The position numbers were made by a program, and so were the translations under genes. Below are positions 15,988 to 32,329 of a DNA stretch of 32,329 bases, piece after piece. The notes below the pieces were generated by a model, which was not told the origin of the DNA, made no database searches, and saw only the letters and a list, made by a program, of their open reading frames with translations. Each line of letters starts with the position of its first letter. Position 1 is the first letter of the stretch. Location: contig JAQCAD010000037.1 of the NCBI GenBank assembly GCA_027621915.1, positions 1 through 32,329 on the forward strand. Reading direction: 5' to 3'. This DNA is from Pseudomonadota bacterium (GTDB lineage Bacteria > Pseudomonadota > Gammaproteobacteria > Steroidobacterales > Woeseiaceae).

Positions 15988-16016
15988 TTGACAGGTTCAA
16001 ATTTACTGTGCAACGA
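15988..16016 (+). promoter_or_regulatory. Candidate promoter upstream of the riboswitch
   Basis: TTGACA at 15988-15993 matches the sigma-70 -35 consensus perfectly. A -10 element would be expected near 16011-16016, which would start the transcript just before the aptamer, as required. However, the sequence there (CAACGA) is a poor -10 match. The geometry supports the call and the -10 does not, so this is tentative. Confidence 0.3.
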
Positions 16017-16025
16017 TTGACCACG

Positions 16026-16112
16026 TTTGATAAAGGCACACCTTCCGAAAGGAGGGGTCGCAAAGCTACCGGTCTAAGGGGAAACCTAGGATAGCGGGGT
16101 TGCCGGGTTGAA
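16026..16112 (+). ncRNA. Cyclic di-GMP-I (GEMM-I) riboswitch aptamer
   Basis: This matches the GEMM-I aptamer in sequence and structure. An AAAGGC segment with G at 16035-16036 is followed by helix P2: CCTTCC at 16041-16046 pairs with GGAGGG at 16051-16056 around a GAAA tetraloop at 16047-16050. Next come the conserved GTCGCAAAGC joint (16057-16066), an ACCGG/CTAAGG arm with a CCTAGG return strand (16068-16090), and the hallmark ATAGCGGGGTTGCCGG (16091-16106). By hand alignment to the Vibrio Vc2 aptamer, the ligand-specifying position 20 is G (16035), which favours c-di-GMP over cGAMP. The 3' edge of helix P1 is approximate. It precedes the FAD-oxidase gene by about 140 bases, and no T-tract terminator is seen between them. 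Confidence 0.93.
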
Positions 16113-16160
16113 TCTGCCAGTTTGCATCGCAGTCAACCTGTAATGACAATCGTCAGGCAG

Positions 16161-16169
16161 CCCCCCCCC
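16161..16169. repeat. Run of nine C in the riboswitch leader
   Basis: A homopolymeric C9 tract lies between the aptamer and the oxidase start codon. Such tracts are prone to slippage. Here it is in untranslated leader, so length changes could alter leader folding rather than reading frame. Confidence 0.8.
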
Positions 16170-16255
16170 TCTTCGGTTTCATACCTGATCGCAGGCTCCG
16201 ATTACTGCCGGTATTCAAATATCGAATATCGTCCCGTTCGATCTTGGAGTAAGCA

Positions 16256-17623
16256 ATGTCAGGTAACGCAATGCACTTGCGACGGTCAGGTAGATATCGG
16301 TCATCGATATTGCAGGGCCCAACAGCAATCAGGCCAACTCGTGTCGTTGATATCAAGAACGCCCTCGGGCCGGACTCACATTATGCGGCGCCGTTCAGGC
16401 CGACAGGCGCCAATAGTTCGGCTACCGGTTGCACTTCTTCTTCTACCGGCACCCTCATCGACCTCACCGCGCTCAACCAGATCCTCAACATCGATCCCAA
16501 TGGACAGACAGTTACCGTACAGCCCGGCGTGCGGATCGGGGACCTGGTGCGGGAGCTTTCAGACTATGAAATGGAGCTCGCAGGCGGGCATGACCTTATG
16601 AGTCGTACTGTCGGTGGTGCAGTTGCTGGCGGATGTATCGGCCCGTCTTTCGGTGACGACAGCGCTTTCTTGTCGTCGCAGGTTGAAAGCATCCGCCTGA
16701 TCACACCTGCCGGCAAACCGATTGAAATTCGCAGCGACCAGAAAAATCTACTACATGCGTTTCGACTCAGTTTCGGAATGTTGGGAATAATCTACGAAAT
16801 CAAGCTGCGAGTTCGCCCAATAAGAACGTTCCCGGTTACACATCGACGTTGCACGTTTGAACAATTCAGTGCTGTTGCAGAAAAACTCGCGAATGTCGAC
16901 GTCGGCCTGAAATTCTTTCTGATGCCTTTCAGGGATCGTGTCTATCTCGATATTCGCAGAGTTAGTGCAGGAGAAACCGCGACGCATCGTATTCCATGGA
17001 AAGTGAAAGACTGGGGCGAGAGCACTGTTCTTCCTAACGTATTCAAATCCATCAGTCGAATCGTGCCATCGTCTGGAATTCGCTATCGAATAATCGATGA
17101 GATAAGCAACCTTACACAGGGCATCGTAAATAATCGACTCGTTAGTTCCGGAAGCAATTCGACCGCCTTGTCCAGCAGCACGAAAACAAACGATGCCGCC
17201 AAGAAACTGCTCTATTCGACCTGGTTTTTTCCGGCGGCTGACTTCGCTATCGTTGTGCAGGCCTATCGGGATTTTTGCTTTCGCGCAAAGGAAAGCAGTG
17301 GATTCCGCTGCGACATGCCAACGGTTGGTTTTCGCCTGGGTAAAGATGACTCTGCGCTTCTGTCGCCAAGTTTTGATGAACCGATGATCGCTCTGCGCGC
17401 AATATCGACGCAGATGAAAGGCTGGGAGGATTTCGCCATTGACTTTGGCGACTTTGCCCGCCACTGGGGTGGGTCTCCGTTATTTAATCAGACACTCGAA
17501 GTTCCGGCTGACTACCCGGCGCATGTGTTCGGTAGTCGGCTTGATCTCTTTCGCAAGATCCGCCGGCAATTTGACCCTGAAAACCGTATGATGAATCCGT
17601 TTCTGTCACAGTACTTTCTTTGA
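16256..17623 (+). CDS. FAD-linked oxidase (VAO/PCMH family), c-di-GMP riboswitch-controlled
   Basis: A 455-residue FAD-dependent oxidoreductase of the vanillyl-alcohol-oxidase fold. The PCMH-type FAD domain carries PFRPTGANSSATGC (46-59), TVTVQPGVRIGDLVREL (85-101) and TVGGAVAGGCIGPSFGDDSA (118-137). The C-terminus RQFDPENRMMNPFLSQYF resembles sugar-lactone and alditol oxidases. The position where many relatives carry a flavin-linking His in a Gly-x-His-Ser motif is Asn-Ser-Ser here, so FAD may be bound non-covalently. The substrate is unknown: an aldonolactone, alditol or other alcohol oxidised by oxygen are options. TTGGAG lies six bases before the ATG. It is first in an operon with the methyltransferase gene, 12 bases downstream. 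A cytoplasmic location is likely because no signal peptide is seen. Confidence 0.85.
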   Translation: MSGNAMHLRRSGRYRSSILQGPTAIRPTRVVDIKNALGPDSHYAAPFRPTGANSSATGCTSSSTGTLIDLTALNQILNIDPNGQTVTVQPGVRIGDLVRELSDYEMELAGGHDLMSRTVGGAVAGGCIGPSFGDDSAFLSSQVESIRLITPAGKPIEIRSDQKNLLHAFRLSFGMLGIIYEIKLRVRPIRTFPVTHRRCTFEQFSAVAEKLANVDVGLKFFLMPFRDRVYLDIRRVSAGETATHRIPWKVKDWGESTVLPNVFKSISRIVPSSGIRYRIIDEISNLTQGIVNNRLVSSGSNSTALSSSTKTNDAAKKLLYSTWFFPAADFAIVVQAYRDFCFRAKESSGFRCDMPTVGFRLGKDDSALLSPSFDEPMIALRAISTQMKGWEDFAIDFGDFARHWGGSPLFNQTLEVPADYPAHVFGSRLDLFRKIRRQFDPENRMMNPFLSQYFL

Positions 17624-17635
17624 CGCACGCAAACG

Positions 17636-18376
17636 GTGGAAAAAGTGGAGTCCGTCAAGGATCACTACGATAGTTTTCTCGGCGAAGTTTATTCCTGGAT
17701 ACTCGGGGACTTTGAGGTTGCGTACAGGAAAAACGTCGAACTCTTTGCGGAATTAAACCTGGTTCGTGAAGCAGGCGAACTCGCCCTCGATCTCGGCTGC
17801 GGCCCAGGCTGTCAATCACTGCCACTGGCTGAACTAGGCTACGACGTTCTCGCTGTCGACTTTTGTCAGGACCTGCTGGACGAGCTTTCGTCCCGTGCCG
17901 ACCAGATGCGCATCAAGACGGTTTGTGACGATATTCTGAATTTCCCTGATCATCTGACAGAGCAACCGAACCTGATCGTTTGCATGGGTGACACACTCGT
18001 ACATCTGCCCAACCGGAAGTCTGTCGCGTCCCTTGTAGACAAGATCTGCGTGGCCCTAAAACCCGCCGGCCTGTTTATCTATGCAATTCGTGACTACATT
18101 AGTTACGTGCCAACCGGCGCAGACCGTTTCATTCCGATCCGCGCGGATGACAATCGTATTTTCACCTGTTTTCTCGAATACAGGGACGATGTCGTACATG
18201 TGCACGACATCCTGCACCGTCGACAGGATGACAATTGGCACACGAGCATCAGCGACTACCTCAAGCTTCGCCTCGACACCTCAGATATCAACCATCAACT
18301 TGAAATTAACGGCATGACCATTCGTCGCCGTTTCGTTGTCGAGGGGATGATCACAGTTGTGGCCGAAAAATCCTGA
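17636..18376 (+). CDS. Class I SAM-dependent methyltransferase
   Basis: A 246-residue Rossmann-fold methyltransferase. SAM motif I is ALDLGCGPGCQSLPLAELGY (about 50-69), followed by an acidic Val-Asp at the end of strand 2 and the LIVCMGDTLVHL motif near 115. The protein starts with a KDHYDSFLGEVYSWILGDFE helical cap typical of small-molecule methyltransferases. The acceptor is unknown. It follows the oxidase gene by 12 bases, so it is very probably co-transcribed and under the same riboswitch; the product could be a methylated metabolite. The start is uncertain: GTG at 17636, or GTG at 17645, which has GGTGG five bases before it. A stem-forming inverted repeat overlaps the stop. Confidence 0.87.
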   Translation: MEKVESVKDHYDSFLGEVYSWILGDFEVAYRKNVELFAELNLVREAGELALDLGCGPGCQSLPLAELGYDVLAVDFCQDLLDELSSRADQMRIKTVCDDILNFPDHLTEQPNLIVCMGDTLVHLPNRKSVASLVDKICVALKPAGLFIYAIRDYISYVPTGADRFIPIRADDNRIFTCFLEYRDDVVHVHDILHRRQDDNWHTSISDYLKLRLDTSDINHQLEINGMTIRRRFVVEGMITVVAEKS

Positions 18377-18594: not shown

Positions 18595-19146
18595 ATGGAT
18601 GTAAAGACTGTTTGCCTTGGCATGCTGACTGACGGCCCCGCCTCCGGCTACGACATGAAAAAGTGCTTTGAATCTTCGTTCGGACATTTTTTCCCCGCGG
18701 GCTACGGTTCGATTTACCCGGCTCTCGCCACGCTGGCGCGAAATGGCATGGTCGAATTCGAAGAAGTACCTCAGGAAGGGAAACCGGATCGCAAGGTTTA
18801 CACGATCACCGAAAAGGGACGTAAAGAGCTAATGCAGGGTCTGTCGAATCCGCAGCCGACCCATAGAGTTCGCTCAGAGTTTTTGGCAATGATGTGCTTC
18901 GCGCACTTGATGACGGAAGAACAGGTCAATCTCGTTATCGACAACAAACTTCTCGAGATCGAGAATTTTCTGAAGTTATTTGAGAAGCCCCTATGTAATC
19001 AATGTTCGTCAATGCCGAACGGAGCGCGCTTTGTCGCAGGCTTCGGACAGTTCGTTGCGTCGTCGCTTAAGGGGTACATCGAGGAAAATCGTGAAATGTT
19101 GACAAGTTCCGGCGCGGAGAAAGTCAAAGTGGCTGTCGGTCAATAA
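18595..19146 (+). CDS. PadR-family transcriptional regulator
   Basis: A 183-residue winged-helix repressor-type regulator. The N-terminal DNA-binding domain shows SGYDMKKCFESSFGHFFPAG, then YGSIYPALATLARNGMVEFE (recognition helix region) and the wing DRKVYTITEKGRKEL at about 65-79. The C-terminal half (about 90-180) is helical and matches the dimerisation part of PadR regulators. PadR proteins often control efflux pumps and respond to small hydrophobic compounds. Here the gene sits 34 bases before an RND adaptor gene on the same strand, so control of that pump is likely. The first codon is clear, but the ribosome binding site is weak (GGCGGA about ten bases away). A palindrome upstream suggests autoregulation. 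Confidence 0.9.
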   Translation: MDVKTVCLGMLTDGPASGYDMKKCFESSFGHFFPAGYGSIYPALATLARNGMVEFEEVPQEGKPDRKVYTITEKGRKELMQGLSNPQPTHRVRSEFLAMMCFAHLMTEEQVNLVIDNKLLEIENFLKLFEKPLCNQCSSMPNGARFVAGFGQFVASSLKGYIEENREMLTSSGAEKVKVAVGQ

Positions 19147-19180
19147 CTCGGCAAAATCAGATGATACGAAGGCACTTGAA

Positions 19181-20311
19181 ATGAATTTGGGCAATTTTGA
19201 AAGATACAAATCCTGGCTGGTCTCTGCCGGCATTGCTGTTGGCATTGCGCTTTGGCTACTTAGCGGTCGAATAGGCAATGATGCCGATTTGCGTGCCAGC
19301 AAGCCGGAGCCAACCACTCATGTCGATGCGCGCACGAGCGTGCGTGTCAGAAACCAGACCGCAGAAGAAGTTACTCGAACCATTACTGTCAACGGAAAGA
19401 CTGCACCGGCGCGCATTGTTGAGCTGAATGCTGAAACGGACGGTCGTGTCGTCTCTATCGGCGGAGAGCGCGGCGATCGACTTGATCGTGGTGAAGTAAT
19501 CGTTCGACTTGATGAACGGGACAGAAGCGCGAGACTCGCGCAAGCGGTCGCGACGGTCAAACAACGTGAACTCGAGTTTGCTGCCAGACAAAAACTCATG
19601 GGCGAGAGCTATGTTTCGGAGGCTCAGTTGCAGGAGGCGTCGGCAATGCTGGAGGCCGCAAGAGCAGAACTGGCCCGGGCGAAACTCGATATTGAATACA
19701 TGGTTGTTCGTGCTCCGTTTAACGGCGCATTGCAGGAACGTCAGGTTGAAATAGGCGACTACGTAAAGACCGCCGACCCGATCGCGACATTTGTTGACGA
19801 AAGAACGCTGATTGTTAGCGCCAACGTTTCAGAATTCGATGCGCACAATGTGAGCAAAGGCGAAGTAGCGTCGGCCAAACTTGCCACCGGCGAAACGGTA
19901 ACAGGCGTCATTCGTTACGTTGCCCCGATGGCGGACGAAGCAACGCGCACCTTTGTGGTTGAGCTTGAAATTGACAATGCGGCCGGAAAATATCGCGGCG
20001 GCATGACGGCCGAGTTGATGATTCCGGCTGAGACCATTTTTGCTCACCGAATTTCGCCGGCGCTGTTGACGCTCGATGACAACGGCAACCTCGGCATTAA
20101 GACAGTCAATGAACGTGGCTTGGTTGAGTTTCATCGGGCTGATATTGCCATGTCTTCCGGTGAAGGCGTATGGATAGCCGGTCTACCTCATTCCGCCGTA
20201 ATCATTACGGTCGGCCAGGGATTTGTGAACGCTGGCGCGCTTGTTGACTCGGTAACCGAGGTCGAAGTTGATATGGCAGTTGCGACCAAATCCGCCGAGC
20301 AGGGCCAATAG
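19181..20311 (+). CDS. RND efflux periplasmic adaptor (membrane-fusion) subunit
   Basis: A 376-residue HlyD/AcrA-like adaptor that bridges an inner-membrane RND permease to an outer-membrane channel. An N-terminal membrane anchor spans about 10-29, without a lipobox. The first half of the lipoyl-like domain is near ETDGRVVSIGGERGDRLDRG (85-104). A helical hairpin runs from about 113 to 172, and the lipoyl return is YMVVRAPFNGALQERQVEIG (173-192). Beta-barrel and membrane-proximal domains follow. The ATG is preceded by GAAGG eight bases upstream. It ends two bases before the permease GTG, so the two are coupled. It lies downstream of the PadR gene, which probably regulates it. Confidence 0.92.
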   Translation: MNLGNFERYKSWLVSAGIAVGIALWLLSGRIGNDADLRASKPEPTTHVDARTSVRVRNQTAEEVTRTITVNGKTAPARIVELNAETDGRVVSIGGERGDRLDRGEVIVRLDERDRSARLAQAVATVKQRELEFAARQKLMGESYVSEAQLQEASAMLEAARAELARAKLDIEYMVVRAPFNGALQERQVEIGDYVKTADPIATFVDERTLIVSANVSEFDAHNVSKGEVASAKLATGETVTGVIRYVAPMADEATRTFVVELEIDNAAGKYRGGMTAELMIPAETIFAHRISPALLTLDDNGNLGIKTVNERGLVEFHRADIAMSSGEGVWIAGLPHSAVIITVGQGFVNAGALVDSVTEVEVDMAVATKSAEQGQ

Positions 20312-20313
20312 CA

Positions 20314-23300
20314 GTGAAAATTATTGACACCGCAATGCGACGATCCCGAACCGTCATCCTGTCGCTGGTGGTGATTATTGTTTCGGGCGTTGTCACATAT
20401 ATCAACGTTCCGAAGGAAGCCGAGCCTGACATCAATATTCCGATGATTTATGTCAACGTGAAACACGACGGAATTTCTCCTGAGGACGCCGAAAGGTTGC
20501 TGATTCGACCGATGGAGCAAGAGCTTCGTACGATCGAGGGCATCGAGGAGCTAACAGCCAACGCATACGAAGGCGGGGCGAATATCACGATCAAGTTTGA
20601 CGCCGGCACCGATGTCGACCTGGCGCTGCAGGATTCCAGGGCAAAGGTAGACGCGGCCAAGGCCAAACTGCCGGGTGAGACCGAAGAGCCAACCGTGACG
20701 GAAATCAAGTTTGCAAGATTCGATCCGATGTTAGTTCTGAATCTTGCTGGAGACGTACCGGAGAGAACGCTGACGATAATTGCAAGAGACCTAAAGGAGA
20801 AAATTGAAGGTATCTCTGGCGTTCTGGAGGTTTCGCTGGTCGGTGTTCGCGAAGAACTGATGGAAGTGGTCATCGACCCGCGCGCCATGGAAAGTTACAA
20901 CCTTGACCAGGCGCAAATATTGTCCCTGGTCGATCGTAATAACCGTCTGGTAGCGGCCGGAGCATTGCATACAGACGAGGGCAGGTTTCCGGTCAAAGTT
21001 CCGGGCGTATTCGAATCGGCGGCCGACGTGCTCGAAATGCCGATTAAAGCGGTCGGTGATCGTATTGTGCATTTTCGGGATGTAGCCGAAGTACGACGTA
21101 CTTACAAAGACGCAGAGAGTGTTGCTCGCTTGAATGGCAACCCCGCACTGGCTATTGAAGTTGTGCAGCGCAGTGGCGCGAACATTATCGGCACAGTTGA
21201 AGAAGTAATGGCGCTGATTGAAGCAGAGAAAACGACATGGCCGACCGGCATTCAGGTCGTCGCGTCGCGGGACAAGTCCATTGATGTCCAGAGAATGCTT
21301 TCAAATCTGCAGAACAGCGTTATTTCGGCAGTGCTTCTCGTTTTTATCATTATTGTGGGCATTCTTGGCCTGCGCGCCGCCGGACTTGTCGGTGTATCGA
21401 TTCCCGGCAGCTTTCTGCTTGGAATCCTGACCATCGCTTCTTTCGGTGTCACGATCAATATGATGGTTTTGTTCGCGTTAATTATGGCGGTCGGCATGTT
21501 GGTCGACGGCGCAATTGTCGTCACCGAACTGGCAGACAGACGCATGGCTGAAGGTATTGAGCGCCATGACGCATATTCCAGCGCAGCGAGACGCATGGCG
21601 CTGCCTATCATTGCTTCCACGTGCACGACACTGGCGGCATTCATTCCGCTCGCGTTCTGGCCGAATGAGATGGGCGAGTTCATGAAGTTCCTGCCAATTA
21701 CATTGATTGCCGTGCTCTCATCCTCATTAATCATGGCACTTCTTTTCGTACCAACGCTCGGATCGTTGTTTGGTGGATCAGGAACGATGACGGATCGACA
21801 GCGCAAGGATTTGACGGTTGCGGAAACGGGCGACCTCGACGATATATCAGGGTACACCGGACGTTACGTTCAGTTTCTCAGGCGGTCGCTGCTCCGGCCA
21901 TGGCTAAATGTAGGAGTAGTGTCGCTCGTACTTGCCGGAATTATCGCGACGTTTCTGCTGTTTGGTCGTGGTTTCGAATTCTTCCCGGAAGTTGAACCCG
22001 AATTCGCCACGATTGAAATCAGGGCACGCGGAGATCTTTCTACTACTGAAAAGGATTTCCTGGTCAGTCAGGTCGAAGCCTATGTACTTGATCTGGATGA
22101 GATCGCAAGTGTGTACACAAAGACCGGCGGCAACGGACAGGGTGCTGCTGAAGATCAGATTGGCACGATTACGCTTAATTTTGTTGAATGGGATGAACGC
22201 CGCCCGGCTAACGAAATACTCCGCGATATTCGCAGGAGTGTAACGGGACTCGCGGGCGTTTCTGTCCAGACACGAAAAGCTCAGGATGGCCCTCAACAGG
22301 GCAAGCCGGTTCAGATCGAACTCTCGGCGATATCCCCTGCGCTGCTGACCGAGGCGACGGGCCGGGTCCGGGATGCGCTGGAATCGATCGAAGGCGTGTT
22401 TAATGTTGACGACACGAGACCACTTCCGGGCATCGAATGGCAGATCGATGTTGATCGTGCTGAGGCTGCCAGGTTTGGCGCCGATGTAACAATCGTCGGA
22501 AACATGATTCAACTCGTGACTAACGGAATCAAGATTGGCGAGTATCGTCCGGATGATGCCGAAGATGAAATCGATATCCGCGTTCGATACCCCTACGATA
22601 GCCGTAATCTCACTCAGATAGACGACCTGCGTATCCCTACACCCAATGGCCTGGTGCCAATAAGCAACTTCGTCAAGAGGGTGCCCGCCAACAAGGTCAG
22701 CACCATACAGCGGACCGACATGCGCCGGACAATGAGAGTCGAAGCCGATGTCGAGAGCGGCTACCTTGATGGCGATATTGTCCGCGAGATGGCGGAGCTA
22801 CTGCCATTTCTCAATATCGATCCAAGCGTCAACCTGCAGTTTCGCGGCGGCAGCGAAGATCAAAATGAGGCGGCGGCCTTTCTTCTGCGGGCGATGATGA
22901 TCGCGATTGCCGTAATGGCAATTATTCTGGTGACTCAGTTCAACAGTTTGTATCAGGCGTTCCTGATTCTTACAGCCGTCGTCTTCTCGACGGGTGGCGT
23001 ACTGCTGGGCCACCTTATAATGAACAAACCGTTCGGTACCGTTATGAGCGGTGTCGGTGTGATCACGCTTGCGGGAATCGTCGTTAACAACAACATTGTT
23101 TTCATTGACACCTACAACGTATTGCGCAGCAGAGGAACTGAAGCCTTTGACGCAATATTAAGAACCTGTGCAGTCCGTTTACGACCCGTTTTGCTTACAA
23201 CGGTTACGACAATCCTTGGATTGATGCCCATGGTATTTGCGGTCGATATCGACCTGATTAACAGGGACGTTTCTGTTGGCGCCCCGTCGACGCAGTACTG

Positions 23301-23460
23301 GACACAGTTGTCTTCTTCCGTTGCCGGTGGCCTCGCATTTGCAACCGTACTGACTTTGTTCCTGACACCCAGTCTTTTGATGATCGGCGCCAATTCATCG
23401 GACTGGCTTGTCAGCAGACGCGGCAGGGTCAGTCGAAATCCAGCCCAAGTTCCTTCCTGA
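20314..23460 (+). CDS. RND-family efflux permease (first pump)
   Basis: A 1048-residue proton-driven inner-membrane exporter of the AcrB/SwrC type with 12 predicted membrane helices and two large periplasmic porter loops. The N-terminal helix is at about 10-29. The TM4 proton-relay motif is GMLVDGAIVV with Asp398 followed by Gly399, where AcrB has two Asp. TM10 reads GIVVNNNIVFID, with Asn where AcrB has its relay Lys. The conserved RLRPVLLTTVTTILGLMPMV loop precedes TM11. The GTG start has AGGG nine bases upstream. It forms a pair with the upstream adaptor. The substrate range cannot be told, and no outer-membrane channel gene is in the window. Confidence 0.95.
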   Translation: MKIIDTAMRRSRTVILSLVVIIVSGVVTYINVPKEAEPDINIPMIYVNVKHDGISPEDAERLLIRPMEQELRTIEGIEELTANAYEGGANITIKFDAGTDVDLALQDSRAKVDAAKAKLPGETEEPTVTEIKFARFDPMLVLNLAGDVPERTLTIIARDLKEKIEGISGVLEVSLVGVREELMEVVIDPRAMESYNLDQAQILSLVDRNNRLVAAGALHTDEGRFPVKVPGVFESAADVLEMPIKAVGDRIVHFRDVAEVRRTYKDAESVARLNGNPALAIEVVQRSGANIIGTVEEVMALIEAEKTTWPTGIQVVASRDKSIDVQRMLSNLQNSVISAVLLVFIIIVGILGLRAAGLVGVSIPGSFLLGILTIASFGVTINMMVLFALIMAVGMLVDGAIVVTELADRRMAEGIERHDAYSSAARRMALPIIASTCTTLAAFIPLAFWPNEMGEFMKFLPITLIAVLSSSLIMALLFVPTLGSLFGGSGTMTDRQRKDLTVAETGDLDDISGYTGRYVQFLRRSLLRPWLNVGVVSLVLAGIIATFLLFGRGFEFFPEVEPEFATIEIRARGDLSTTEKDFLVSQVEAYVLDLDEIASVYTKTGGNGQGAAEDQIGTITLNFVEWDERRPANEILRDIRRSVTGLAGVSVQTRKAQDGPQQGKPVQIELSAISPALLTEATGRVRDALESIEGVFNVDDTRPLPGIEWQIDVDRAEAARFGADVTIVGNMIQLVTNGIKIGEYRPDDAEDEIDIRVRYPYDSRNLTQIDDLRIPTPNGLVPISNFVKRVPANKVSTIQRTDMRRTMRVEADVESGYLDGDIVREMAELLPFLNIDPSVNLQFRGGSEDQNEAAAFLLRAMMIAIAVMAIILVTQFNSLYQAFLILTAVVFSTGGVLLGHLIMNKPFGTVMSGVGVITLAGIVVNNNIVFIDTYNVLRSRGTEAFDAILRTCAVRLRPVLLTTVTTILGLMPMVFAVDIDLINRDVSVGAPSTQYWTQLSSSVAGGLAFATVLTLFLTPSLLMIGANSSDWLVSRRGRVSRNPAQVPS

Positions 23461-23469
23461 TCCGGGCGA

Positions 23470-23490
23470 GGTCAGAGGCCTTCTCTGACC
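23470..23490 (+). terminator. Stem-loop after the first RND permease
   Basis: GGTCAGAG (23470-23477) pairs perfectly with CTCTGACC (23483-23490) around a five-base loop, ten bases after the permease stop. No T run follows, so it may act as a transcript-end stabiliser or an imperfect terminator separating the two RND operons. Confidence 0.5.
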
Positions 23491-23703
23491 CAGGCCGCGT
23501 GACGATCTACATCCAAAGCCGCGTTGCATGCATCTAGGTCTTAAGAAAAGCCTTTTTTGGGCCCTTCTGAATAGCGTGGCAGCCTGAACCGGATCACATG
23601 ATGCTCGTCGATTGATACAGTCATCTGTCCGGCAAACACGGATATCACGTTGATTCTATTAGCTATTTTAGATGTTCTTAAAAGCGATTGCGTTATAGTA
23701 TTC

Positions 23704-23729
23704 TAGTGTTTTACTTAACTACAACACTA
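23704..23729. promoter_or_regulatory. Inverted repeat upstream of the second RND operon
   Basis: TAGTGTT (23704-23710) and AACACTA (23723-23729) are perfect inverted repeats with a 12-base spacer, in an AT-rich stretch 40 bases before the preferred adaptor start and just after a TATAGT hexamer. The form and place suit an operator for a dimeric regulator. No regulator gene is adjacent to this operon; the PadR protein or a distant regulator could act here. Confidence 0.4.
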
Positions 23730-23769
23730 TATGTCCTTACCGACGTTACACCATTACCTGGCAACTAAC

Positions 23770-24843
23770 ATGAATCTCAAAAATACAGTCTTCGCCGTCA
23801 CCGCGCTCTTGCTGAACTCAGCATTGACGGCATGCGGCGTCGGTGAAGCAAGCACAAGCAATGATGAACTGTCAGTGGCAACACCGCTCCAGGTTAAAGT
23901 CGTTTTGCCGCACAGGGCCGAAATATTTGCTACCTATCATACGACCAGCACGATCGCATCCGATGTCGACGCTCCGGTGACTGCCCGTGCGAGCGGCGAA
24001 ATCATCGACATCCTGGTAGAGGAAGGAGACCGGGTCGAAAGAGGACAGATTCTTGCTCGACTCGACGGCGATCGTCTGCGGCTGGAATTAAACCAGGCAA
24101 AAGCTAACCTGGAAAAGACCACGCGCGAGTACGAGCGTTTCGTCAATCTGCATAAGCGCGGTCTCGTCAGTTCAACCGCCATCGACGGAATGAAATATGA
24201 CATGGATTCGCTTCGGGCCACCTTTGAACTAAAGCAGCTGAGTTACAACTACACTTTCATTCGCGCACCGGTTTCCGGTGTCGTTACAGCGCGCGACGTC
24301 AAAGTCGGCCAGCATATTAGTGACGGTGACACGACGTTCAAAGTTACGGACACATCGAAGCTTGTCGCGTATTTACGCATACCGCAAAGTGACATGAGCA
24401 AATTCTCAGCGGGGCACGTTGCCAAGATTCAGGTCGATGCCATGCCGGAAGAAGTGTTCTCCGCCGCTATCTCGCGTATCAGCCCGACAATTGATACACG
24501 GAACGGGACGTTTCGTGCTACGGCATACATTGACAATGACGACGGCCGCCTGGTGCCGGGTATGTTTGGACGTTTTGAAATTGCCTACGAAAGTCACACA
24601 AACGCGCTGATAATTCCCGCTGCGGCTATTTTGGAAGAGGACAGCGTGTCAGTTGTGTATGTCGTGGACAATGGTGCGGCTGAACGACGACCAATTGAGA
24701 CGGGCATTCAGAGAGACGGAAATGTCGAAGTCCTCAGTGGCCTTGATGGAACCGAACACATCATTGTTACCGGTCAAAACGGCCTGCGTGATGGCAGCAG
24801 GGTCTTGGCCAACGCACAGTCGCCTGGTCCCGTGATCGGCTAG
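23770..24843 (+). CDS. RND efflux adaptor lipoprotein (first of a tandem pair)
   Basis: A 357-residue AcrA-like periplasmic adaptor with a lipoprotein signal. Residues 1-21 are basic then hydrophobic and end in the lipobox Leu-Thr-Ala-Cys22, so it should be lipid-anchored. The order is lipoyl half-motif VEEGDRVERGQILARLDGDR, a short helical hairpin of about 70 residues, lipoyl return YTFIRAPVSGVVTARDVKVG, then beta-barrel and membrane-proximal domains. I prefer the ATG at 23770 because the lipobox then sits at the normal distance; an ATG at 23731 would add 13 residues. No strong ribosome binding site precedes either. The next gene encodes a clear paralogue, which suggests tandem duplication. 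Confidence 0.9.
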   Translation: MNLKNTVFAVTALLLNSALTACGVGEASTSNDELSVATPLQVKVVLPHRAEIFATYHTTSTIASDVDAPVTARASGEIIDILVEEGDRVERGQILARLDGDRLRLELNQAKANLEKTTREYERFVNLHKRGLVSSTAIDGMKYDMDSLRATFELKQLSYNYTFIRAPVSGVVTARDVKVGQHISDGDTTFKVTDTSKLVAYLRIPQSDMSKFSAGHVAKIQVDAMPEEVFSAAISRISPTIDTRNGTFRATAYIDNDDGRLVPGMFGRFEIAYESHTNALIIPAAAILEEDSVSVVYVVDNGAAERRPIETGIQRDGNVEVLSGLDGTEHIIVTGQNGLRDGSRVLANAQSPGPVIG

Positions 24844-24869
24844 CCCGCAACTTTTACCGGAGCGGGATA

Positions 24870-26003
24870 ATGCCAAACAGTGAGCACATTGATCAGGTGA
24901 TGAAACCTGGTCGTATTTGGTCGGGACTTGTCGTTGCAGCTATTTTTATCACGGCGTGTGGTGACGATGGCAAGTCTGCTGACAAGTCCGAAGATGAAGA
25001 AGTGCTTTCAATTCCAGTCGAGACCGTCCGACCTTCTCGCGGCGATATTGTCGCCATGTACTCCGGAACCGCACCTATCGAAGCGTTTGCGGATGCAGCC
25101 GTCATTGCCAAAGTAGGCGGCGAAGTCACGGAGATTCTTGTCGAGGAAGGCGATGATGTAGTCAGTGGGCAAATTCTCGCTCGCCTGGACGGAGACCGCC
25201 TGCGGCTCGAATCCCAGCAAGCCGAAGCAAATTTGCGAAAACTGGAACGAGATTATCAACGAAACGTCGATCTTAAGGACAAGGCACTTATCAGTGCCGG
25301 CGACTTTGAAAAAATTCAATATGAGATGGAAGCTCTGCAGGCGTCGTTCGACCTCGCAAGACTTGAATATGGTTATACGGAGATACGCGCTCCGATTGAC
25401 GGCGTGATATCCGAAAGATTCATTAAGCTAGGCAATACCATTGACCTGAATGCCAGGACATTTCACGTGACCAGTCTCGAGCCCCTGGTTTCCTATTTGC
25501 ATATACCCGAACGAGAATATCGGCGCATTGATCCGGGCCAGGCGGCCACTATCGGGATTGATGCGTTGCAAGGTGCCTCGTTCGAAGCTGCCGTTGCACG
25601 CATCAGTCCGGTAGTCGACCCTGAAACGGGTACCTTCAAGATCACGATTGAAGTATCCGACCCGTCGCGCCACCTGAAGCCGGGCATGTTTGGCCGAATT
25701 GGGATTGTTTATGACACGCGACAGAATGTGCTGCAAATTCCTCGAAGCGCGATTATCGAAGAAGCGGGTTCGTCAACAGTCTTCGTAGTCACAGACGCGG
25801 TAGTCGAGAAGCGCGACGTTCGCACTGGATACACACAGGGCGGGCTTATTGAAGTGCAGGAAGGCATAGACGATGACGATGAAATTGTCTCCGTCGGCCA
25901 CACTAACCTGAAGAATGGATCAAAAGTATCCGTGATCAAGACGATCGATGCCGTCGATCTCAATGCAGCAACTATCCCGTCGACTGGCGGGATAGATAAC
26001 TAG
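24870..26003 (+). CDS. RND efflux adaptor lipoprotein (second of a tandem pair)
   Basis: A 377-residue adaptor closely related to the preceding one: both carry the identical QILARLDGDRLRLE block and a helical hairpin of the same length. The lipobox is Phe-Ile-Thr-Ala-Cys30. The start at 24870 has a GGAGCGGGATA ribosome binding region; a Met at residue 11 (24900) would give a shorter leader with Cys at 20 and is possible. The spacer after the lipid anchor is rich in Asp, Lys and Glu. It is followed 12 bases later by the permease gene, so it is in one operon with it. Two adaptors with two permeases suggest either mixed adaptor complexes or one adaptor per permease. Confidence 0.92.
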   Translation: MPNSEHIDQVMKPGRIWSGLVVAAIFITACGDDGKSADKSEDEEVLSIPVETVRPSRGDIVAMYSGTAPIEAFADAAVIAKVGGEVTEILVEEGDDVVSGQILARLDGDRLRLESQQAEANLRKLERDYQRNVDLKDKALISAGDFEKIQYEMEALQASFDLARLEYGYTEIRAPIDGVISERFIKLGNTIDLNARTFHVTSLEPLVSYLHIPEREYRRIDPGQAATIGIDALQGASFEAAVARISPVVDPETGTFKITIEVSDPSRHLKPGMFGRIGIVYDTRQNVLQIPRSAIIEEAGSSTVFVVTDAVVEKRDVRTGYTQGGLIEVQEGIDDDDEIVSVGHTNLKNGSKVSVIKTIDAVDLNAATIPSTGGIDN

Positions 26004-26015
26004 CCGGCCAGAAAA

Positions 26016-29000
26016 ATGCGCAGACTCATTGAGATTGCAACCGAACGTCGCGTGACAATTGTAATGTTTACTGTGGCGATCGTGCTATTTGGCATGGTGT
26101 CGTTGTCACGGCTGAACGTAAATCTTCTTCCGGATATCTCGTACCCGACAGTCACTGTTCGAACCGAGCTGACTGGCGCAGCGCCAGTTGAGATTGAAAA
26201 TCTTTTAAGCAAACCGATTGAAGAAGCTGTCGGCGTCATTAGAAATGTACGCCAGGTACGTTCCGTCTCCCGATCCGGACAGTCTGACGTCACGCTGGAG
26301 TTCATGTGGGGTACAGATATGGATATTGCGGGCGTGGACGTCCGCGAGAAGATCGATATCCTGGATCTGCCGCTCGAGGCAAGCCGTCCATTGTTGCTGC
26401 GATTCGACCCGTCGTCGGAGCCAATTGTTCGACTCGCGCTCATGGAAACCTCAGGCGAGGCCGGAACAGGGGCAACCGAATCGGATGAGGCGGACCTGAA
26501 AGCGCTTCGCCGCCTCGCTGAAGACCGGATTAAAAATGCGCTGGAGGCGGAAGAAGGCACCGCTGCAGTGAAGGTCAGCGGTGGCCTGGAAGACGAAATT
26601 CAGATTCAGGTCGACCAACAAAAGCTTTCGCAACTCGGCATCAGTATCGAGCAAATCGCAGAGAGGATTCGAGCTGAAAACGTCAATCTCTCCGGCGGTC
26701 GACTTGAAGAAGGATCGCAGCGGTACCTCGTCCGAACGATCAACGAGTTTCAAAAAGTCGAAGAATTCGCCGGCGCAATTGTTGCGACCGTAGCCAACCG
26801 ACCGGTCTACCTCAAGGACGTCGCCACTGTGGTTCGTGGCTATAAGGATCGCGAGGCGATTACACGGGTCAATGGGAGAGAGTCAGTTGAGCTTGCCATC
26901 TATAAGGAAGGCGATGCGAACACGGTTCAGGTCGCCAGGCGCGTCAAAAACAGACTTGAAGCGCTCCGCGAAGAGTTGCCTGATAACCTTGAGCTGGTAG
27001 AGATTTATGACCAGTCGAAATTCATATCTGCCGCCATTTCGGAGGTAACCTCGGCCGCTGTTATCGGGGGACTTCTGGCGATTGTCGTATTGTTCGGTTT
27101 CCTGCGTGATGCCCGTGCAACGTCAATTATCGCCATTTCGATTCCTGTATCTGTCATTGGCACATTCCTGCTGATGTATTCGAACGACGTGTCGCTCAAC
27201 ATCATGTCTCTGGGTGGCGTGGCGCTTGCTGTCGGAATGTTGGTCGATAACGCGATTGTCGTTCTCGAAAATATTGTACGCAAGCGTGAGCAAGGCGAAA
27301 CGATTCTCGACGCTGCCCGAAATGGAGCGTCGGAAGTATCGGCGGCAGTTATCGCCTCAACGCTAACCACTGTTGCTGTGTTCTTTCCCATGGTCTTTAT
27401 TAGCGGAATCGCGGGTCAGTTATTCAGAGACCAGGCGCTAACCGTAACTTTTGCACTGGTGTTTTCACTGATTGTGGCGCTGACACTCATTCCGATGCTG
27501 GCTGCAATGGGTACTGGTGCCCGTTACGAGGTTGGCAATGAGGCTTCATCTCCCAATCGCTTCACTCGCGGCGTCGCCTATCTGGTAAGAATGGCCGGCG
27601 GCGTATTCGCCGGTATTGGTTGGCTGTTTCGAATACTTCTATGGGCACCCAGCAAAATATTTCAGAGTCTGAACACGTCGGCCGCCAGAATTTACGAACC
27701 ATCACTACGTTGGTCGCTTGATCATCGCGCGATCATAATCGGCGGTGCGGCAGCTATTTTTGCCGCCACGATGCTGTTGATCCCAAGGTTGGGGACCGAA
27801 CTTATTCCGCAACTGTCGCAGGGCGAGTTCAATGTCGACGTCAGGCTGTCGCCAGGTGCCCCGCTTCAGGAAACGGATCGGGCTATCAGGGCAGCTCAGG
27901 CAGTGACCCGAGATATGGAAAATGTGGAGCTTAGTTACTCAGTTGCCGGTACCGGAAATCGACTTAATGCCAACCCAGTCGACTCCGGAGAAAATACCGG
28001 CACACTGAGTCTTACATTGACACCGGGTGTCGGGCGCGATGCAGAGACGGCCGTGATGACCAAGATGCGTGAGAAGCTCTCTTCAATGCCCGGTGTCCAG
28101 TACGAATTCGGTCGCCCTGCCTTGATGAGTTTTGCGAGCCCGCTGCAGGTCGAGATCTCCGGGTTCGATCTGGAAGGCCTGGAGGCGGCAAGCGAGGCAC
28201 TTGTTCGTGAGCTTTCCGAATCTGGCCGATTCACCGATCTCAAAACGACGATTGAGCCCGGCAATCCCGAAATTCAAATCCTGTTTGACCAGGACCGAGC
28301 GGCATCACTCGGCCTCGCCGTGCGCGACATTGCGGATCGCGTTGTTGCGAACGTTCGCGGCGAGCTTGCAACGCGCTATACCTGGCGCGACAAGAAAATT
28401 GACGTTCTCGTGCGCAGTATTGATTCGCGCGAGGCAAGCCTCGGCGAAATTCGCAATTTGATCGTCAATCCTGCATCTGAACGTCCTGTCACACTGGATG
28501 CGGTAGCCGATATTCGTGTTTCGCGAGGACCCGCCGAAATTCGCAGGGTAGCCCAGGAACGAGTGGCCATCATTACTGCAAATCTCGCCTATGGAGACCT
28601 CGGCGCAGCGGTCGCCGAAACGAATGCTGCGATCAACCGCATCCCGATGCCGAACGGAATAGCCGCAATGGTATCCGGACAGAATGAGGAGATGCAGGAC
28701 TCGTTTCGCTCAATGCAATTTGCACTCGCGCTGGCAATTTTTCTCGTTTACCTGGTTATGGCGTCCCAGTTCGAATCTCTTGTACATCCACTTGTCATTC
28801 TCTTCACGATTCCGCTGGCACTGGTCGGTGCCGTCCTCGCGTTGTTCTTGACCGGCACGACGGTCAATGTTGTCGCATTCATCGGCGTGATCATGCTTGC
28901 GGGCATCGTCGTCAATAACGCGATTGTGCTGGTCGATCTGATTAACCAGCTACAGGCCAAAGGGATGGAGAAAGCGGCGGCGATTATAGAGGCCGGAACG

Positions 29001-29246
29001 GCAAGACTCCGCCCGATCCTGATGACGACACTGACAACAGCTCTCGGCCTCCTGCCAATGGCAATCGGCGTCGGCGAAGGTTCGGAGGTTCGAACGCCAA
29101 TGGCGATCACGGTGATCGGCGGACTGCTGGTTTCGACTTTGCTAACGCTTGTCGTCATTCCAGTCGTTTACTCGATACTGGATCGGAAGAAATGGCCAGC
29201 GCCGCATGTATCTTCCGCCAATGCGCGGCTTTCGCCGGCGGGCTGA
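26016..29246 (+). CDS. RND-family efflux permease (second pump, first permease)
   Basis: A 1076-residue proton-driven RND exporter with the usual 12-helix, two-porter-loop layout. The TM4 motif is GMLVDNAIVVLENI with Asp411-Asn412. TM10 is GIVVNNAIVLVDLINQLQAK, and RLRPILMTTLTTALGLLPMA follows. A hydrophilic and amphipathic segment of about 60 residues between TM6 and TM7 (near 505-565) includes an extra hydrophobic stretch, making this protein a little longer than its neighbours. The porter motif LGTELIPQLSQGEFNV opens the second periplasmic loop. The gene starts 12 bases after the adaptor and ends 4 bases before the next permease, so co-expression is nearly certain. Confidence 0.95.
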   Translation: MRRLIEIATERRVTIVMFTVAIVLFGMVSLSRLNVNLLPDISYPTVTVRTELTGAAPVEIENLLSKPIEEAVGVIRNVRQVRSVSRSGQSDVTLEFMWGTDMDIAGVDVREKIDILDLPLEASRPLLLRFDPSSEPIVRLALMETSGEAGTGATESDEADLKALRRLAEDRIKNALEAEEGTAAVKVSGGLEDEIQIQVDQQKLSQLGISIEQIAERIRAENVNLSGGRLEEGSQRYLVRTINEFQKVEEFAGAIVATVANRPVYLKDVATVVRGYKDREAITRVNGRESVELAIYKEGDANTVQVARRVKNRLEALREELPDNLELVEIYDQSKFISAAISEVTSAAVIGGLLAIVVLFGFLRDARATSIIAISIPVSVIGTFLLMYSNDVSLNIMSLGGVALAVGMLVDNAIVVLENIVRKREQGETILDAARNGASEVSAAVIASTLTTVAVFFPMVFISGIAGQLFRDQALTVTFALVFSLIVALTLIPMLAAMGTGARYEVGNEASSPNRFTRGVAYLVRMAGGVFAGIGWLFRILLWAPSKIFQSLNTSAARIYEPSLRWSLDHRAIIIGGAAAIFAATMLLIPRLGTELIPQLSQGEFNVDVRLSPGAPLQETDRAIRAAQAVTRDMENVELSYSVAGTGNRLNANPVDSGENTGTLSLTLTPGVGRDAETAVMTKMREKLSSMPGVQYEFGRPALMSFASPLQVEISGFDLEGLEAASEALVRELSESGRFTDLKTTIEPGNPEIQILFDQDRAASLGLAVRDIADRVVANVRGELATRYTWRDKKIDVLVRSIDSREASLGEIRNLIVNPASERPVTLDAVADIRVSRGPAEIRRVAQERVAIITANLAYGDLGAAVAETNAAINRIPMPNGIAAMVSGQNEEMQDSFRSMQFALALAIFLVYLVMASQFESLVHPLVILFTIPLALVGAVLALFLTGTTVNVVAFIGVIMLAGIVVNNAIVLVDLINQLQAKGMEKAAAIIEAGTARLRPILMTTLTTALGLLPMAIGVGEGSEVRTPMAITVIGGLLVSTLLTLVVIPVVYSILDRKKWPAPHVSSANARLSPAG

Positions 29247-29250
29247 CACC

Positions 29251-32200
29251 GTGAAGCATACTGAGATTTCCCTGCGTCGTCCGGTCACGACTGTTGTGTT
29301 GTTCGTAGCGCTCGCACTGATTGGCCTGATCGCTACGCGTCTGCTTCCGCTCGAAAAGTTTCCGGACATCGAGTTTCCGGGAATTATCATCCAGGTACCC
29401 TATACGGGATCGACGCCCGAAGAGGTCGAACGGCTGATCACCCGTCCGATTGAGGAATCGCTCGCGACATTGTCCGGAGTTGAACGAATGTTTTCATCGT
29501 CAGGCGAGAACATGTCACAGATTTTTCTGCAATTCGGCTGGGACCAGAGCATGGGCGCCAAGGGCATTGAAGCTCGCGCCAAGGTTGACGGAATCCGGCA
29601 CCAGTTGCCTGCCGACGTTCGCCGCATCCTGATTTTCACCGGCTCACTCGGCGATCAGCCGATATTGCAATTGCGAATCTCGAGTGATCGTGATCTCACC
29701 AATAGTTACGACTTGCTCGACCGCATGCTGAAAAGACGAATTGAGCGACTCGAGGGCGTATCAAAAGTCGAATTACATGGCGTTGATCCACGAGAGATTC
29801 GCATTTTGCTCAGTCCCGACCAGCTATCAGCACATGGCGTTGATATCGACCAGGTACGCCAATTGCTGGAAAAGAGTAACTTTTCAGTCAGTGCTGGACG
29901 AATTACTGACAATGGTCAGCGATTCAGTGTTCGTCCACAAGGTGAGTTTCAGTCGGTCGCAGATATTCGGAACATGGTTATCAACACCGAAGGCCTCAGA
30001 CTGGACGATGTCGCAGACGTAGAACTTCGCAGCCCCGACCGCGATTACGGTCGCCGTCTCGATCGGAAGTACGCTATCGGTGTGCAGATAAGCAAGTCAA
30101 CCGGCTCGAACATGGTCGATGTAACTGACCGCGTCATGGCGGAAGTCGCAGAAATTTCGAAACTACCGCAGATGCAGGGCATCAATATATTCGATCTTGA
30201 CAATCAAGGGGACAGCGTTCGCGAGTCTCTTGGCGACTTGTTAAGCGCTGGCGCGATCGGCGCGTTGCTCGCGCTGGCAATTCTTTTTGTGTTTCTCCGC
30301 CAAGTCACGACAATGTTGATCGTCACAGCATCAGTTCCTTTCTCCCTATTGATTACACTCGGTGCGCTGTATTTTTTCGGCTTGAGCCTGAACATGCTCA
30401 CGATGATGGGATTGATGCTCGCGATAGGCATGCTAGTCGACAACGCTGTTGTCGTCATCGAAAGCATTTTCAGGCATCGAGCTTTGGACCCCGATAACCC
30501 GATGGAGGCAACGCTCAAGGGAGTCAAGGAAGTTGGTATCGCCGTGGTCGCAGGTACGCTGACGACGATCATTGTTTTCGTACCAATCATGTTCGGAGCG
30601 CAGACCGATATTTCAGTATTCATGACGCACGTCGGAATTACCATAATCGTCGCGCTTCTCGCGTCTTTGTTGATTGCGCAAACACTGGTACCGATGCTCG
30701 CGGCACGTATCGCGATTCCACCGCCACAGAAAAGCGGCTCGTTTATGGGAAGGCTTACCGCGCGTTACGTATCAAGCCTGCGCTGGGTCTTGGCGCGCCC
30801 GTGGAAAACGTTCGCAGGCATCATTGGAATCTGCCTGATTGGCTTGGCACCGATTGCGCTGAAGCTCGTCAAGTTCGATGCGTTCCCGCAAGACGTGGGC
30901 CGCCGTCTCTACATGGACTTGTACATTGAAGGGGAACATCCACTTGAGCGCGTCGAAGCCAATGTCCGCACTATCGAAGACTACCTGTTCGAGAACCAGG
31001 AAGAATTTGATATCCGGTCTGTGTACAGCTACTACGAGAAGGGTGATGCCAGCGTCGTAATCCTGTTGACGGAGGAAGAGGACGCGAAACTATCGACTAC
31101 AGACGTAGTCGCCCGAATTGAGAAAAACCTGCCGGAAATCGCCATCGGCAAACCGAGTTTCGAGTTCGATCAACAGGCTGGCGGAGACCGATTCAGTTTG
31201 CAGATATCGGGAGACTCAACCGTCATCCTCAATGAGATCGGTGTCGATGTCACTCGATTGTTGAGAACTGTTGAAGGTCTGCAGGATGTTCGTTCTGAAG
31301 CAAAAGTGGGCGACAGAGAGATTCAGATCTCAGTTGATCGGGCCCGCGCGGCCGCAGTCGGCCTGACGACCGAAGATATTGCTCGCGACATCGGCGTTGC
31401 AATGCGTGGCCAGAATTTGCGAGAGTTTCGTGGCGAAATGGGCGAAGTCGCGCTCAGACTGGCGTTTCGCGAGAGTGACAAACAGAGTATTGATCAGTTG
31501 GCGGATCTACCTCTGTCCACACCTGACGGCCGACGCATCTCTTTGGGATCGGTAACAGATTTTAGAATCGCAGTTTCTCCGGACACCATTCAGCGCACCG
31601 ATCGTCAAACCGCCGTGGTTATTTCCGCTAACCTCGATGATGAAGAAAGCCTCGAATCCATCAAGCCGAAAGTTGAAAAGTTGATGGGCGAATTCAAATT
31701 GCCACCCGGTTATAAGTGGAAATTTGGAAAGGGGTTTGAGCGCCAGGACGAAACGCAGCAAATGATGGCGACTAACATCATTCTCGGCATCGCCTGTATT
31801 TTTCTTGTCATGGCTGCGCTATTCGAATCGATGCTGTTTCCTTTTTCGATAATTCTTGGTTCGATTGTCTTTTCAGTGTTCGGCGTGTTCCTTTTTTTTG
31901 CGGCTACCAGCACTACTTTTTCGTTCATGGCATCTATTGGCATCATGATTCTGATAGGTGTTGTAGTTAACAACGGCATTGTACTGGTCGATCACATCAA
32001 TAACCTGCGGCTCGCGGGTGCTCCCAGAAACGAAGCGATCGTTGAGGCGGGGAGAGAACGTATCCGCCCGATTTTGATGACGGTCGCGACCACCATCCTT
32101 GGCCTCGCGCCTCTAGCTTTCAGCAGTACCCAGATTGGCGGGGACGGCCCTCCCTACTTTCCGATGGCCAGAGCGATCATCGGCGGGTTGGCGTTCTCAA

Positions 32201-32329
32201 CTGTGGTTTCATTACTGGTAGTCCCGGCTCTTTACGCCTACTTCGACACGCTGGCGGTCTGGGGCAGGAACGTTATGCGCGTCGCGCGCGGTGGTTCCGG
32301 GCGGTCAGTGACAACGATTAAGACCAGCG
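29251..32329 (+). CDS. RND-family efflux permease (second pump, second permease), runs off the window end
   Basis: The frame opens with GTG at 29251, four bases after the preceding stop, and stays open through the last base, giving at least 1026 residues. The N-terminus MKHTEISLRRPVTTVVLFVA is the standard RND start, followed by FPDIEFPGIIIQVPYTGSTP. The TM4 motif is GMLVDNAVVVIESI with Asp397-Asn398. TM10 is GVVVNNGIVLVDHINNLRLA, and RIRPILMTVATTILGLAPLA follows. The last membrane helix (about VVSLLVVPALYAYF) is inside the window, so only the short cytoplasmic tail is missing. With the preceding permease it forms a tandem pair, as in MdtB-MdtC heteromeric pumps; a mixed trimer is an inference. 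Confidence 0.93.
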   Translation, partial: MKHTEISLRRPVTTVVLFVALALIGLIATRLLPLEKFPDIEFPGIIIQVPYTGSTPEEVERLITRPIEESLATLSGVERMFSSSGENMSQIFLQFGWDQSMGAKGIEARAKVDGIRHQLPADVRRILIFTGSLGDQPILQLRISSDRDLTNSYDLLDRMLKRRIERLEGVSKVELHGVDPREIRILLSPDQLSAHGVDIDQVRQLLEKSNFSVSAGRITDNGQRFSVRPQGEFQSVADIRNMVINTEGLRLDDVADVELRSPDRDYGRRLDRKYAIGVQISKSTGSNMVDVTDRVMAEVAEISKLPQMQGINIFDLDNQGDSVRESLGDLLSAGAIGALLALAILFVFLRQVTTMLIVTASVPFSLLITLGALYFFGLSLNMLTMMGLMLAIGMLVDNAVVVIESIFRHRALDPDNPMEATLKGVKEVGIAVVAGTLTTIIVFVPIMFGAQTDISVFMTHVGITIIVALLASLLIAQTLVPMLAARIAIPPPQKSGSFMGRLTARYVSSLRWVLARPWKTFAGIIGICLIGLAPIALKLVKFDAFPQDVGRRLYMDLYIEGEHPLERVEANVRTIEDYLFENQEEFDIRSVYSYYEKGDASVVILLTEEEDAKLSTTDVVARIEKNLPEIAIGKPSFEFDQQAGGDRFSLQISGDSTVILNEIGVDVTRLLRTVEGLQDVRSEAKVGDREIQISVDRARAAAVGLTTEDIARDIGVAMRGQNLREFRGEMGEVALRLAFRESDKQSIDQLADLPLSTPDGRRISLGSVTDFRIAVSPDTIQRTDRQTAVVISANLDDEESLESIKPKVEKLMGEFKLPPGYKWKFGKGFERQDETQQMMATNIILGIACIFLVMAALFESMLFPFSIILGSIVFSVFGVFLFFAATSTTFSFMASIGIMILIGVVVNNGIVLVDHINNLRLAGAPRNEAIVEAGRERIRPILMTVATTILGLAPLAFSSTQIGGDGPPYFPMARAIIGGLAFSTVVSLLVVPALYAYFDTLAVWGRNVMRVARGGSGRSVTTIKTS

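Follow-up and report, generated by a model that had tools for sequence, protein, structure and literature searches.

The best explanation of the locus as a whole is that a c-di-GMP-I riboswitch aptamer in the leader of a gene for a FAD-dependent oxidase-like protein sets the translation of that gene, most likely as an OFF switch, and this explanation is considered probable. The locus lies in a stretch of 32,329 nucleotides from a member of the Woeseiaceae (Gammaproteobacteria), the whole of which is referred to here as the window. Sequence comparison shows the aptamer, its conserved contact bases and the long-standing link between aptamer and oxidase; it also shows a Shine-Dalgarno sequence that is in or against the aptamer in some relatives and in a predicted hairpin in others. 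The features concerned, in window positions, are the following.

15988-16017, forward strand: sigma70-like promoter predicted from sequence (TTGACA at 15988-15993, -10-like AACGAT at 16012-16017)
16025-16107, forward strand: c-di-GMP-I (GEMM-I) riboswitch aptamer (RF01051, 76.1 bits)
16098-16104, forward strand: aptamer 3' strand GGTTGCC, which can pair with the leader block at 16156-16162
16156-16162, forward strand: leader block GGCAGCC, candidate switching strand (7 of 10 members of the genus share a GGCAA core)
16206-16255, forward strand: hairpin, from predicted folds, hiding most of the Shine-Dalgarno GGAG (16246-16249)
16256-17623, forward strand: FAD-dependent oxidase-like protein, 455 aa (open reading frame and Pfam: FAD_binding_4 and ALO)
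17636-18376, forward strand: SAM-dependent class I methyltransferase, 246 aa, GTG start (Methyltransf_25)
18595-19146, forward strand: PadR-type regulator, 218 nt beyond the methyltransferase (open reading frame and Pfam)

The Rfam match to RF01051 at 16025-16107 on the forward strand scored 76.1 bits (E 1.9e-13) against a gathering score of 35, covered model positions 1-87, which is the full length, and was the only above-threshold match in the window once the search tool had dropped an overlapping match from the same clan. With this covariance search the c-di-GMP-I aptamer proposed in the earlier note, together with the hallmarks listed there (a GAAA-capped P2, GTCGCAAAGC and ATAGCGGGGTTGCC, all of them seen on inspection of the sequence), has been confirmed as a c-di-GMP-I riboswitch predicted by covariance and conserved contact bases. 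Full-length match, GAAA tetraloop and contact bases are thus common to the window aptamer and the family, and so is its position in the 5' leader of a gene, the oxidase start lying 148 nt downstream. The genome of 3.56 Mb contains three c-di-GMP-I aptamers. One (79.9 bits; L001:446-1588, on C49 of the same genome) is upstream of an M23 peptidase, and another (55.2 bits; L003:1501-1600, on C34) carries in its P3 3' strand a GGAG that is 8 nt from the downstream ATG of a gene for a 471-aa protein with no Pfam match. Of 60 genomes searched, 48 carry RF01051, in up to 21 copies, and the oxidase is therefore not the only gene for which the aptamer is used in these genomes.

Of 296 genomes of the order, 104 had the oxidase in a profile search (E <= 1e-60); among 369 genomes sampled from the class it was found in four, three of which belong to the order, and in these samples the enzyme is therefore nearly confined to the order. 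The aptamer was directly upstream, on the same strand, in 95 of the 103 order genomes that had both the oxidase and usable upstream sequence, and these were distributed over five families. The criterion was a match to RF01051 or RF03167 above the gathering score, and the tally was summed by hand; the 103 comprise 100 of the 104 profile-search carriers and three from a separate carrier search, which was the sole source of the upstream regions of G006, G010 and G023. Left out of the count were G063 and G040, whose sequence before the aligned start is 150 and 0 nt long, respectively, and G247, G293, G058 and G001, which are fragments or cut genes. By family, the linkage was found in 68 of 70 genomes of the window's own family (f1), 12 of 12 in f15, 8 of 8 in f10, 6 of 7 in f6, the single genome of f3 and none of five in f9. 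The computed gap between the aptamer and the first aligned base of the oxidase ranged from -30 to 218 nt over the 95 loci, in all of which the two share a strand. Chance is excluded for the aptamer-oxidase pair because of the E-value and this recurrence. The claim in the earlier note that the riboswitch belongs to the oxidase gene was borne out by this survey, and the oxidase is, as judged by these comparisons, the conserved target of the aptamer.

No aptamer was found upstream of the oxidase in G236, G257, G135 and the five f9 genomes among the 103, nor in G622, an oxidase carrier outside the order. A model of the oxidase-linked aptamers, run with filters off on the aptamer-less loci, returned nothing convincing, the best score being 15.6 bits at L160, one of the loci left out, followed by 11.4 bits at L159. 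In a tree of 81 oxidases, which is a part of the carriers, f1 forms one clade (support 0.95), f1, f3, f6 and f15 together have a support of 0.998, and G236, G257 and G135, which lack the aptamer, fall within carrier clades. The nearest oxidases outside the aptamer carriers, those of f9 and G622, are without the aptamer; G622 groups beside the f1, f3, f6 and f15 clade with support of 1.0, and the deeper branching of f10, which has the aptamer, is weakly supported (0.26-0.28). It is therefore not proved that the pairing arose once, which would call for loss or transfer of the gene in G622.

The oxidase gene begins with an ATG, 6 nt upstream of which is a GGAG. Its product matches PF01565 (FAD_binding_4) with 70.8 bits over a threshold of 26.4 and PF04030 (ALO) with 31.8 over 23.1; an alignment of 20 oxidases has 29 invariant positions, and FAD_binding_4 was found in 20 and ALO in 18 of the 20 scanned. 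The best solved relatives are L-galactono-1,4-lactone dehydrogenases (GALDH), then xylitol oxidase and DprE1, with the FAD domain and a little beyond it aligned and the C-terminal half uncovered in the first three alignments. Whilst FAD_binding_4 and ALO are common to the window oxidase and to D-arabinono-1,4-lactone oxidase, GALDH and DprE1, the window protein falls far below the NCBIfam cut-offs (102.6 bits against 292.25 for TIGR01679, and 47.7 against a curated 500 for DprE1, NF053785) and matches the solved relatives mainly in the FAD domain. Its sequence places it among the VAO-type flavoproteins, where aldonolactone oxidases/dehydrogenases and DprE1 are closest to it. An AlphaFold2 model made from an 8-row alignment was poor (pLDDT 50.1). 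The protein appears, by eye, to be cytosolic, and at a guess its predicted substrate may be sugar-type and oxidised in the switch between the motile and attached states. The suggestion in the earlier note that c-di-GMP controls a metabolite-modifying step is plausible.

A promoter-like TTGACA/AACGAT pair ends 7 nt upstream of the aptamer, and transcription would be predicted to start at about 16024, immediately 5' of it. By eye, a promoter-like stretch, TTGACA ... TGTGCAACGAT, with an unusual -10, can be seen upstream of many aptamers in the window's family, with TTGC in place of TTGACA in some members (the counterpart in the window is 15988-16022). At L159 (G257) a family-like TTGACA...GTGCAACG is kept some 50 nt upstream of the oxidase, the start codon follows directly behind it and the aptamer is absent, an arrangement suggestive of a naturally occurring riboswitch deletion. 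Intrinsic termination is not favoured, the window leader being, by eye, without a GC-rich stem and T run, and control is predicted most likely to act on translation. The transcript would begin just before 16025 with the aptamer at its 5' end, binding of c-di-GMP would lock the aptamer 3' strand (P3/P1, GCGGGGTTGCC), and the locked strand would alter the access of ribosomes to the oxidase start. Synthesis of the oxidase would most likely be lowered by c-di-GMP, and the output of the coupled methyltransferase would change along with it.

The predicted sign draws on relatives with short leaders. With start codons assigned by a rule, 15 of 88 loci have no more than 8 nt (0-8) between the aptamer and the start codon; seven of these, close relatives of one another, have the Shine-Dalgarno GGAG in the P3 3' strand, and in the other eight the final bases of the aptamer match form the beginning of the Shine-Dalgarno sequence. 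The layout with GGAG in P3 recurs at L003, the aptamer on C34 of the window's own genome. With the Shine-Dalgarno sequence in or against the aptamer at these 15 loci, a bound aptamer should bar the ribosome, so that repression by c-di-GMP is predicted. L161 and L162, outside the 88 and with the same aptamer, both end in GCGGAGTTACCAAT. The motif GCGGAG in P3 was rejected as a sole marker of the arrangement in which the Shine-Dalgarno sequence is within the aptamer, since it occurs in all seven such loci but also in 7 of 81 others. Among 24 leaders printed, seven (L021, L024, L131, L133, L134, L144 and L150) fold a TGTCTTTG.../...GGAGACA hairpin over the Shine-Dalgarno sequence. Translational control, as proposed here, is also the type found in Vc2 of Vibrio cholerae, in which P1 is said to be the switching element in a passage of PMC9262584, whereas at 15 of the 88 loci here the aptamer itself contains or abuts the Shine-Dalgarno sequence.

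For the window genus it is proposed that GGCAACC, the alternative partner of GGTTGCC, would report aptamer occupancy to the Shine-Dalgarno hairpin. The pairing of these strands holds in 65 of 70 cells (92.9%) in 10 genus members, which are close relatives, compared with 14-53% in slid controls, and includes one compensatory double change (G004); 29 of 500 shuffles reached that level. In all 10 members the predicted fold pairs some or all of the Shine-Dalgarno sequence. The hairpin z-scores run from -0.2 to -3.4 (mean -1.5), with values close to zero for G004 and G011, and the predicted folds of G009, G010 and G011 differ from those of the other members. When energies were compared with the aptamer 3' strand freed, the genus yielded one OFF, no ON and nine neutral results and the other loci 6 OFF, 12 ON and 45 neutral; this comparison showed no opening of the Shine-Dalgarno sequence on freeing that strand and did not decide the sign. 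Comparison of duplexes with shuffles gave weak results, with p <= 0.05 for the aptamer strand and leader in 3 of 73 cases and for the Shine-Dalgarno sequence and leader in 15 of 73 (1 of 10 and 0 of 10, respectively, in the genus). As the energies are silent on the sign and the duplex tests weak, it is by analogy only that OFF is taken to be likelier than ON for the window locus.

An ON switch in the window genus is thought unlikely, but it can be formulated in some detail. Without ligand, GGCAACC would pair with the aptamer 3' strand and a UGCCUGG-like segment behind it would help to close the Shine-Dalgarno hairpin; with ligand bound, the GGCAACC block would pair with UGCC(U)GG and the hairpin would be loosened. 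In the leaders of the genus, which are built differently from the short-leader loci, a GCC- or TCC-type segment is seen, by eye, at the base of the hairpin, and part of PMC9262584 treats closely related aptamers acting as ON or OFF switches, related cyclic-dinucleotide riboswitches being known with either sign. However, the pairing of the block with UGCC is by eye imperfect in G002, G007, G009 and G011, the energies are neutral, and the short-leader relatives favour OFF.

The methyltransferase gene starts 12 nt after the oxidase stop codon and is probably co-transcribed with the oxidase. Its best NCBIfam match, to the daptide RiPP methyltransferase NF041820, reached 53.5 bits, below the cut-off of 175, and the protein is on its sequence a generic class I methyltransferase, no narrower class being supported. 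A tblastn search (E <= 1e-8) over the collected oxidase loci found a homolog adjoining the oxidase in nine genomes of a single family (the window, G002, G003, G007-G010, G012 and G014). In G004 and G011, both of the window genus, and in the other families, where the aptamer is retained, the same search found no such neighbour; the locus of G006 is cut off, and absence from L013, L113 and L161-L164 is uninformative because these loci end soon after the oxidase. The earlier note had taken the oxidase-methyltransferase pair to be the regulated unit, and the 12-nt spacing in the window and the occurrence of the pair in nine genomes are consistent with this, but the retention of the aptamer where the homolog is missing contradicts it as a rule for all carriers. 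For the lineage of the window it may still be true; as the selected target, the pair is improbable. The methyltransferase is, from these comparisons, an optional partner of the oxidase, and it might be guessed that the product would be methylated only in some lineages, the window's included. The PadR regulator is probably a separate transcription unit. Within f1 the more regular neighbours of the oxidase are PadR, HlyD-type adaptors and RND pumps, and outside f1 the neighbours vary; in the window PadR stands at the head of a long, co-directional series of genes for HlyD adaptors and RND pumps (18595-32247). A second small-molecule methyltransferase of the window, of the Thiopurine S-methyltransferase family (PF05724), is encoded at 1298-1990 on the reverse strand.

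The identity of the ligand was approached through the bases predicted to contact it. The equivalents of G20, A47 and C92 (Rfam positions 11, 38 and 83) are invariant in all 88 oxidase-linked aptamers, the first being at 16035 in the window, and this fits c-di-GMP rather than cGAMP. Aptamers for cGAMP (GEMM-Ib) have an A at position 20, where all 88 have G. Elsewhere positions vary in step, positions 13/36 being C-G in 70 and T-A in 18 of the 88 and positions 15/34 being C/T in 52, A/A in 20, C/C in 9, A/G in 5 and T/A in 2, so that 61 of 88 have C/T or C/C where the RF01051 consensus is A/A. Although 24 of the 95 linked aptamers are listed under RF03167 (c-di-GMP-I-GGC), the consensus of that family has G at the A47-equivalent (Rfam 38), where A is found in 88 of 88 oxidase-linked aptamers and G in none, and the label was rejected as an indication of a ligand variant. 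The window's genome has 15 GGDEF matches, two of them with an in-frame stop. That the ligand is cGAMP or another cyclic dinucleotide is highly improbable in view of the invariant bases and of these GGDEF matches, even though cGAMP riboswitches are described, in a part of PMC7266159, as close variants of the c-di-GMP-I aptamer; G11 of Cd1, the counterpart of G20 in Vc2, appears as a selectivity factor in a section of PMC9262584. There is equally little to be said for a linkage inherited passively with an aptamer inactive by now, for which three genomes within carrier clades with the oxidase and no aptamer might speak, given that the linkage persists in 68 of 70 genomes of f1, whose oxidases range down to 43% identity with that of the window, that the contact bases are invariant and that paired positions change together.

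Woeseiaceae are abundant in marine sediment and genetically little studied. The sensor has been kept before the oxidase in most relatives with this gene, and the signal for biofilm formation and motility probably sets the amount of the enzyme. A VAO-type flavoprotein differs from the usual targets of RF01051; a flavin oxidase as c-di-GMP-I target was not found in the literature searched, and the early GEMM gene lists, which were outside that search, may contain one. GEMM targets are many and varied, according to the part of PMC7266159 that deals with them, and the oxidase is accordingly an extension of the class, not a departure from it. It may be, and this is put forward tentatively, that an ancient c-di-GMP regulon spans the order with one metabolic enzyme as its fixed target, the translation of a sugar-type flavo-oxidase being shut off directly and, in some lineages, the P3 strand being itself the ribosome binding site. 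Where the ribosome binding site is within the aptamer, the locus offers a simple case in which direct control can be tested, and natural comparisons are available in the three oxidase carriers that have seemingly lost the aptamer. The conserved riboswitch is also a handle for finding the substrate of the oxidase and, as it has been held before the gene in five families, the enzyme would seem to matter to the lifestyle decision governed by c-di-GMP.
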